DNA of 64,000 nt from Pempheris klunzingeri. Taxonomy: Eukaryota; Chordata; Actinopteri; Acropomatiformes; Pempheridae. Made by a program: the position numbers and the translations under genes. The stretch covers positions 10,661,618-10,725,617 of the forward strand of contig NC_092013.1 in the NCBI RefSeq assembly GCF_042242105.1. Direction: 5' to 3'. The notes under the pieces are model-generated. The model had not been told where the DNA came from, did not search any database, and was given only the letters and a program-made list of their open reading frames with translations. Positions 16,022-19,000 of this stretch are shown here, piece by piece. Positions within the stretch are counted from its first letter, which is position 1, and every line of letters starts with the position of its first letter.

Positions 16022-19000
16022 TCAGCCCATGGCCGTCACCATGTTAGAGTGGTGCGGGTGCCCAAAGGACGGGTGTATCGGGGTGGGTGTGGGGAGCATG
16101 TGTCCAGCGTGGCTGAAAGGCGGCAAGTGGCCCATGGACATGTGTCCGGCCAGAGAGGCGGCGCTGAAGGGAGAGCTCTTGTCGTGCAGGTTTTTGGAAA
16201 ACTCATCGTAGGCATCACTGCACCGCTTGCTCTTTTTGGATTTGTTGGACATTTTCCGGTTGCGCGTCTGTATTCCCTCTTTTTTCATGGTCAGAGGTCG
16301 GTTCACCTGTGTGGAGAGGGAGAAGCGAGGGGGCGATTAACTTTAAACACGTAAATTATGGACTGTGTGAAAACATGATAAGATACATTTTTAAACACTG
16401 AGTTCTTTTGTTATGTTTGGTAAGTCCTTAAAGAATAAGGCTCTTAATACTGTGTATTTTAGACCAACACCAACTATACATTAGTCCGTCACTTATTACG
16501 TTCACACTTCCCCATCCTGTCTGTCAGGAACAAGCATGCTGAGTAAAGATATAAATCTTTACAAATAAGTTACAAGTGTATGTTTTTATTTTTTAGAAAA
16601 GCTGAATCATTTCCTAGAACAGCTAGTTACTGTAGTTTCTAGCAAATGTTACTCAACGAGCAGTTAATACTGCATTTACTAGGGACTATTTTCAAATAAT
16701 GAATATGCATTCAGAGCTCTAGTAAGTATTTAGTAAGAATTATGCAGCTCATTAACGTGTTTTTGGACAACAGTGGAGGTGTGAGGCTCAGAGGAACGTG
16801 GCTACATAGACCAAACTTTTTAAAGGGATCAATTCATTGTTTTCGTCTTTTCATGGGATTTAATGACAATAGGAAAAATAAAGATATCATCAGATTTATC
16901 CTTTGAATATACGCATCTCTAGTACTTCCTTATCTACTGAGACTCCAGTCTTAATGCTATTCATATGGGGTCTGGCCTTATGGTAGTCCCACTCAACAAC
17001 AGTCCCACCATTGTGACTCTCGGGGGGATTACGCCTTCCATGGAAACAATAAAGCACAAAGAAAGAAAACACCATCGAGCCCAACAGTGTCTGAGAGTAA
17101 AACAACCCTCACTCTCTTTTCTGCCTCTCTTATCCCTCAACAATCAGTGTAACCTGCCTGCCTGCTTCCCGTCTACTTGACCCTGCCGGCTTTGTATGGG
17201 CCCAACTTGGTGATCAGCAGTCAAAGACTTACGTTGTGCAGTTTATAGTAGAGGCCGCAGGCATTGCACACGGGGTCTCCATTTGCATTGCGCCGCCAGA
17301 GTGTGGTGGTGGTCGTCTGACAGTTAGCACAACAGGTGCCTGCTCGTCTGGCAGCAGACTGTGGAAAAACATGAATTCCATTTTGATTAGAGCTCAACAA
17401 CACAAGCAGACACAGAGCACGGGTCAGTTCAGGGATACATCTCAGAATATATCTCATTACGTACAGTGTATGAGATTAGTTGAACTTTCTCTTCTATTGA
17501 TTTAGACCGTGTCATGATATTAGGGCCATAACTAACAATTATTTTCATTTGGGTTCTGAATTAATAGATTAGTTGTTTGGCTTATGAAACCTCAGTAATC
17601 GCAAACAAATGCCTATCATAAGTTCCCAGAGGCCATAATGACATTTTCAAACATGACATTTTCATTTCTACATCCACTTTACTGCCATTGAGGAGTAAGA
17701 AAACCAGAAAATATTCACATCAGAACCACTACATCTTTTGACTTAAACGATTATTGATTGTCACAATTGCTGTAAATAAATTGTCTGTCAAGCGACGAAT
17801 CGATTAATCAGCTAATCGTCACAGTTCTAGGTGACCTGTTTGTAGACATTAAATTTGTGGGAGTGACAGCAGATTTCAAATGAAAATGTATGAAGATGTC
17901 TCACGGATGGCATTTATATATTTTTTTTTAACACAAATGCTAAAGTGATGCACAAAGTTCTGCACTCATCTCGTTTCAAATGATTAGAGAGGAGCCCTGA
18001 TGGATCCTTCACACCACACTGTTTCACACCTTTATAGTTGGGGCTGTTTCCACCACAGGAAATTAATGCATTCATCTGCATCCTCAGTCAAAAGCATCAT
18101 CTAACAAAACATGATAACAACCTGCTTATTTTCTATAATATATTTTTCTGTTAATACTCTGAATCATGCACCAGCTTCCACAACTTTTCCATTCCAATTT
18201 TTTGTTTCTTTTTTTTTTTTTTTCTTTAATGTCATGGACGGAGAGCTTGACCACCATGAAATGAGGTCTGAGCCTCCAGTTAGGAGGCCGCAGCAGGAAA
18301 CAGGCGCTGGTCCCGCAGGTTTATCTGGACCGGTCAGATATCCGGATAGGAAACAAGTGGAGGGCTGCTGCTGCCACTGAACACAAGACGCTCCGGAGCG
18401 CTTCGAGCTCTGGCCGCGCCACACGGAAACCAGGCCTGATATACGGCTGGATTATGTGCTATTATGGCTAAAAGACGCTGAAATAAACGCTCGTATATTT
18501 TCACTGAGGCAGGCAGCTGTTTGCATACGTGGGCTGCGAGTCAGTATCTGTCGCAGCGAAGTGGAGTCACAACATGCGTCAAAAAGACTCTGAATTATAA
18601 TCAATGGCAAAATAAGGTGGGTTTTTTTTTTTGTTTTTTTTTTTTTAGGTTTGTCTTTATACTTTTTAGGTTGACCTTTTTTCTTTAATTGAGTGTGAAG
18701 TGGTGCACTTTCGTCACGTTTGCACACTATATTAAATAATAATTCTTTGGTCACAAAAATGCTGCTTTCACAAGAACAAACCCTGTCGTCTCTGTCCAGG
18801 GAACCTTCAAAATAAAGCAACAAAAATAATTTCTCATAAATCCTGGGTTTAATAGCTGCATCCTGCTACACGAGGCTGGGAATATGTTGTTTTATGTGGA
18901 GATTATTATGAGAATTATCATAAAATAATAATATGTCAATAACATGTCAGTCATTAGTTTAACAGCCAATGTCCAAAAATGTAAAATAATCATGCAATTA

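Follow-up and report, generated by a model that had tools for sequence, protein, structure and literature searches.

A probable +9.5/i4-type enhancer with a changed E-box in the inter-finger intron of a gata2 gene of Pempheris klunzingeri

Described enhancers and composite elements

Deletion of the +9.5 element in mouse abolishes blood stem cell emergence (PMC7018942), and mutations of it occur in some people with GATA2 deficiency (PMC7018942; PMC9291163). The human enhancer variants c.1017+513_1017+540del and c.1017+572C>T sit in the same intron as the splice variants c.1017+1/+2, which are listed with S340 consequences (PMC9291163). Both enhancer variants are labelled as ETS-site lesions in the table of PMC9291163, whereas the deletion variant is described in PMC5663362 as being without the E-box. 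The zebrafish i4 element, in intron 4 of gata2a, drives endothelial expression (Dobrzycki et al., 2020, PMC7018942).

Composite E-box/GATA sites were surveyed in mouse erythroid cells, where a partial E-box stands 7-8 bp upstream of WGATAA at about three-quarters of ~4,000 locations co-bound by GATA1 and TAL1 (Han et al., 2015, PMC4702602). The stricter count in the methods of that paper gives TG at 7-9 bp in 1,650 of the 2,997 top co-occupied sites. CANNTG is the commonest form there, yet it is a minority. TAL1 is placed on the distal half (positions 1-2) and its E2A partner on the TG (PMC4702602).

The gata2 gene and its inter-finger intron

The window, which is the whole 64,000-nt stretch of DNA that was analysed, contains an intact gata2 gene on its minus strand, with five coding exons that join in frame to 452 residues. 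These exons (23252-23033, 22462-21881, 20049-19904, 17358-17233 and 16306-16022) have AG and GT at their inner borders. The exon with the N-terminal zinc finger (19904-20049, minus strand) ends in KPKRRL, and the exon with the C-terminal zinc finger (17233-17358, minus strand) starts with SAARR. Both GATA zinc fingers were recognised by Pfam in the predicted protein.

Among solved structures, the best matches of this protein are the double fingers of GATA3, GATA1 and GATA4, and both single-finger entries of human GATA2 match as well. Of 51 C-finger residues aligned with chain 5o9b of human GATA2, 49 are identical and only the first two differ, and the finger has GATA2-type residues (GTCC, HNV) where the GATA3 chain has GTSC and HNI. 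Over the whole protein, 354 of 450 aligned positions agree with human GATA2 and 301 of 426 with human GATA3. Identity of the gene as GATA3 was rejected on the C-finger residues and on these two figures.

The intron between the finger exons (17359-19903, minus strand) is 2,545 bp long and has GT..AG ends. Its exon boundary, KRRL/SAARR, is the human c.1017/c.1018 boundary, that is, the intron of the +9.5/i4 enhancer. The placement of the array in the gata2 inter-finger intron, which an earlier note had proposed from the letters of this DNA, is thus upheld by the exon anatomy, the Pfam fingers and the GATA2-type C-finger. In this intron, 14 nt separate the donor border from the end of a CA/TA microsatellite (19840-19889), an unusual position so near a splice site.

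The motif array, its island and its likely working

On the gene strand, the intron contains TATCTG-N8-AGATAA-N19-GTTTCCTG, and TATCTG starts at nt 1,564 past the donor border, with 982 nt remaining to the acceptor border. The full order of motifs is CACTTG, TTTCCTATCCGGA, TATCTG, ACCGGTCC, AGATAA, 19 nt and GTTTCCTG, neighbouring motifs sharing their joining bases. The coordinates that follow are on the minus strand unless stated otherwise. CACTTG, a full CANNTG E-box (18354-18359), stands at the 5' side, followed by TTTCCTATCC (18344-18353), an ETS-type site with a GGAA core (18349-18352 on the plus strand) 5' of the partial E-box. A weak ETS-like GGAT core in CCGGAT (18340-18345) overlaps the first base of the partial E-box TATCTG (18335-18340), which is CANNTG with its first C changed to T. 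The 8-nt spacer ACCGGTCC (18327-18334) leads to AGATAA (18321-18326), the sole WGATAR in 18200-18560 and the sole AGATAA in the intron; the ETS-type site GTTTCCTG (18294-18301) lies 19 nt 3' of it. A further GGAA core, inside ACGGAAAC (18425-18428, plus strand), was found within the surrounding GC-rich island. Every motif position given in the earlier note, including the extra ETS site TTTCCTATCC and the E-box CACTTG, was found again on the minus strand, and its E-box-like/GATA/ETS order and spacing within a GC-rich island stand.

The mammalian +9.5 composite is CATCTG-N8-AGATAA, as the earlier note also gives it. The features of a +9.5/i4 element found at this locus are the inter-finger intron, a WGATAR in composite spacing and ETS sites beside the composite; a full E-box (CATCTG or CANNTG) 8-9 bp from the GATA site was not found, and TATCTG is there instead. 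With at most one mismatch to CATCTG ahead of N8-AGATAA on either strand, the intron has one composite; 11 of 2,000 dinucleotide shuffles have as many or more, as do 176 of 20,000 introns shuffled locally in 200-bp blocks that keep the local composition. When spacers of 7-9 nt are allowed, the dinucleotide count rises to 43 of 2,000; for CTG-N8-AGATAA by itself, 39 of 2,000 shuffled introns have at least as many matches. If GGAA/TTCC cores are also required on both flanks, the local-shuffle count drops to 5 of 20,000, a figure that flatters the array since the ETS condition was set post hoc. In the whole window, there are two composites with at most one mismatch against a mean of 0.21 (two are reached in 7 of 300 shuffles), and exact CATCTG-N8-AGATAA occurs nowhere. 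The second near-match, AATCTG-N8-AGATAA (26601-26620, minus strand), precedes the gata2 start codon by ~3.35 kb. It has AA at positions 1-2, which belongs to one of the predominant partial-E-box classes in PMC4702602; its spacer is GA-rich, which raises the likelihood of a chance match.

The array lies in a CpG/GC-rich island (18231-18560, ends set by eye). With 21 CpGs, 18281-18580 is at the top of 5,503 overlapping 300-bp non-coding windows (mean 4.6, sd 3.1), in a ranking for which the masked coding intervals were partly hand-set from the list of open reading frames. GC content is 0.54 over 18300-18499 and falls to 0.30-0.40 in the adjacent 200-bp windows to left and right; the observed/expected CpG ratio is 0.80 over 18240-18540 against 0.45 and 0.38 in the flanking rest of the intron. 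Against the background of a methylated fish genome, CpG density this high suggests a regulatory element free of methylation. Among the 30 densest CpG windows listed, all others overlap 18281-18580 or fall at 44.7-45.3 kb, where a second CpG-dense non-coding stretch (44731-45270, up to 20 CpGs per 300 bp in these windows) is possibly the promoter of a neighbouring gene.

Several other origins of the island were considered and rejected. A repeat within the window was rejected as all 22 BLAST matches (E up to 0.1) are confined to the poly-T end of the query, the first 30 bases. A known structured RNA was rejected on the absence of Rfam matches in the window at the gathering threshold, and a coding exon on the absence of Pfam matches at E up to 0.1 for the open frames over the island (68 aa on the plus and 137 aa on the minus strand).

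From position, motif order, spacing and the island rather than from alignment, the island is probably the fish homologue of the Gata2 +9.5/i4 intronic enhancer. This is the homology that the earlier note had proposed as probable; position, motif grammar and island speak for it, and what speaks against it is that the E-box is not CANNTG and that TA at positions 1-2 is outside the predominant partial forms. Against homology are also the lack of enrichment of GATA sites in the intron (one AGATAA against a shuffle mean of 1.55) and the looser motif, ATCTG-N8-AGATAA with one mismatch, which stays within the range of window shuffles: there are four in the window against a mean of 1.88, four are reached in 9 of 100 shuffles, and two of the four are this same intron element read on both strands. 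A published result with the mouse enhancer weighs on the same side, as a reporter with c.1017+512del28, without the E-box, was not induced by flow (PMC5663362).

The earlier note had called the E-box degenerate. The motif does read TATCTG; loss of the composite is not implied by this alone, as CTG-N8-AGATAA (18321-18337, minus strand) is intact and agrees with the definition of a TG-N7-8-WGATAA partial-E-box composite, and as partial E-boxes are frequent where GATA1 and TAL1 bind together in the erythroid survey (PMC4702602). Most plausibly, the contact with TAL1 is weakened and the composite would still work. In endothelium, haemogenic endothelium and blood progenitors, AGATAA would be bound by GATA2, the remaining CTG half-site would be occupied by an E-protein, with or without TAL1, and the flanking GGAA sites would be bound by ETS factors. 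Together, GATA2, E-protein and ETS factors would recruit co-activators, and gata2 expression would be kept up by positive autoregulation. With the TAL1 half-site probably weakened by the C-to-T change but the composite not abolished, GATA and ETS sites may carry more of the activity than in mammals.

With the changed base, TATCTG and CAGATA are exact reverse complements of each other, and so TATCTG could be a weak inverted GATA site. CAGATA stands at 18322-18327, 7 nt away, and TATCTG is thus present on both strands (18335-18340 on the minus and 18322-18327 on the plus strand), the composite with at most one mismatch being found on either. An alternative working of the array is then a palindromic GATA core, in which GATA2 alone, as two molecules or with both fingers, binds the two half-sites, giving a more purely autoregulatory, TAL1-independent enhancer that is compatible with +9.5 homology. 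A double-GATA probe has been used with GATA2 fingers, in work where a variant protein bound it less than wild type. The left site here is AGATAT, however, and not WGATAR; double WGATAR sites were scored in the GATA2-finger study only with spacers up to 5 bp; and double WGATAR sites were given as 1.25%, against 11.3% for E-box composites, in ATAC peaks at GATA2-activated loci. The symmetry rests on one base and may have arisen by chance. Folding of the core is unremarkable (z -1.06; 28 of 200 shuffles do equally well or better), and a DNA hairpin was rejected on this figure. A palindromic core as the main mode of working is unlikely on this evidence. The partial-E-box and inverted-GATA mechanisms are not exclusive, and the likelihoods of the rival explanations overlap with that of the main reading.

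It is improbable that the island is a CpG island or an alternative gata2 promoter without +9.5 homology, holding the composite as a chance match. Its CpG density is matched, among the 30 densest windows listed, only at 44.7-45.3 kb, which may itself be a promoter; the composite does arise in local shuffles at the frequency given above (176 of 20,000), and TG-N7-8-WGATAA is common, with 22 occurrences in the window and one in the intron. On the other side, order, orientation and spacing fit a known enhancer in the intron where it is expected, and the composite has ETS cores on both flanks (5 of 20,000 shuffles, post hoc). A decayed, non-functional relic of the enhancer, left in gata2b after duplication, is similarly improbable, for although the first E-box base is lost and zebrafish gata2b is reported without the i4 element and with no ATAC peak over its intron-4 region, the CpG density and the remaining array are preserved here and some fish conserve a small stretch of gata2b intron 4 (PMC7018942).

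Paralogue identity and comparison with known enhancers

The gene is somewhat more probably gata2b than gata2a, and the clues are mixed. The C-tail is changed (56 of 75 aligned positions shared with human GATA2), the start is altered to MDVVDQ, and the PASSFTPK stretch of human GATA2 is missing, all in favour of gata2b. A Ras-family gene ~27 kb away (50344-50910, plus strand; Pfam Ras family) points in the same direction; by its sequence it is presumably rab7-like, and RAB7A lies near GATA2 in human. Also recognised by Pfam are genes for a fibrinogen-C-domain protein (38273-39552, minus strand), arpc4 (56192-57499, plus strand) and a 6-phosphofructo-2-kinase (62188-63349, minus strand); for these, as for the Ras GTPase, the coordinates are those of open frames and not of full genes. 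Fitting gata2a as well are the finger region, with 2 differences from human GATA2 in 118 positions, and the overall agreement of 354 of 450.

In zebrafish, the Gata2a protein is nearer to human GATA2 (fingers 98% against 95% for Gata2b), and gata2b is more closely syntenic (PMC8475954); taken with the rab7-like neighbour, the synteny favours gata2b here. Loss of gata2b in the acanthopterygian ancestor was reported (Gillis et al., 2009, PMC2857956), and gata2b was analysed in flatfish and other species (Liu et al., 2016, PMC4806627). PFKFB1-4 are among the families common to the GATA1/2/3 regions (Gillis et al., 2009, PMC2857956); the 6-phosphofructo-2-kinase gene of the window fits this linkage and does not separate gata2a from gata2b.

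The proposal of the earlier note that the changed E-box reflects subfunctionalisation of the paralogues hinges on this identity, which leans to gata2b, the copy reported to be without i4 in zebrafish, where the element is in gata2a (PMC7018942). If the gene is gata2b, the locus may help to show what became of the ancestral enhancer in teleost gata2b (retention, loss or remodelling), a question left open by the zebrafish work. The island may in that case be the "divergent gata2b intronic enhancer", a part of gata2b intron 4 with conservation among some fish (Dobrzycki et al., 2020, PMC7018942). A bolder and unlikely scenario is that the gene is gata2b and, contrary to what is reported for zebrafish, kept a +9.5-type enhancer in which one base swapped the TAL1 half-site for an inverted GATA half-site, moving the switch from TAL1/E-protein-GATA2-ETS towards GATA-ETS autoregulation. 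If true, the swap would let one step of paralogue subfunctionalisation be traced to a single base.

Pattern matches to gata2 relatives numbered 6 in a collection of viral contigs and 71 in one of genome contigs, and none was confirmed. A description of this element with the changed E-box was not noticed among the papers listed in searches of open-licence literature.

Compared with the mammalian +9.5 element (the human GATA2 intron-4/5 enhancer, c.1017+513 to +572), the array is in the same intron and has the same E-box-GATA-ETS order. The first base of the E-box is T here and C in the mammalian CATCTG. The partial E-box lies 5' of the GATA site at N8, in the mammalian order. TATCTG is 1,564 nt from the donor here, against ~0.5 kb in human by the names of the variants, and the ETS site here is GTTTCCTG, whereas the mutated C at +572 in human sits in a CpG (PMC9291163). 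The zebrafish gata2a i4 element shares the intron and the same motif families (ETS, E-box and GATA) in a short core, and its E-box is placed differently relative to GATA than that of mammals (PMC7018942), so that fish elements need not match mammalian grammar. With the GATA1-TAL1 composites, the array shares TG 8 nt upstream of AGATAA and the form CTG-N8-WGATA; it differs from them in having TA at positions 1-2, outside the predominant MA/BG classes (PMC4702602). As a natural fish version in which the TAL1 half of the E-box is changed and the CTG half, the spacing and the GATA and ETS sites are kept, it would allow a test of which parts of the E-box the enhancer needs. The element is probably a homologue of a known enhancer that differs by one base in its E-box. 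It does not represent a new kind of element, and its value is that of a natural experiment.
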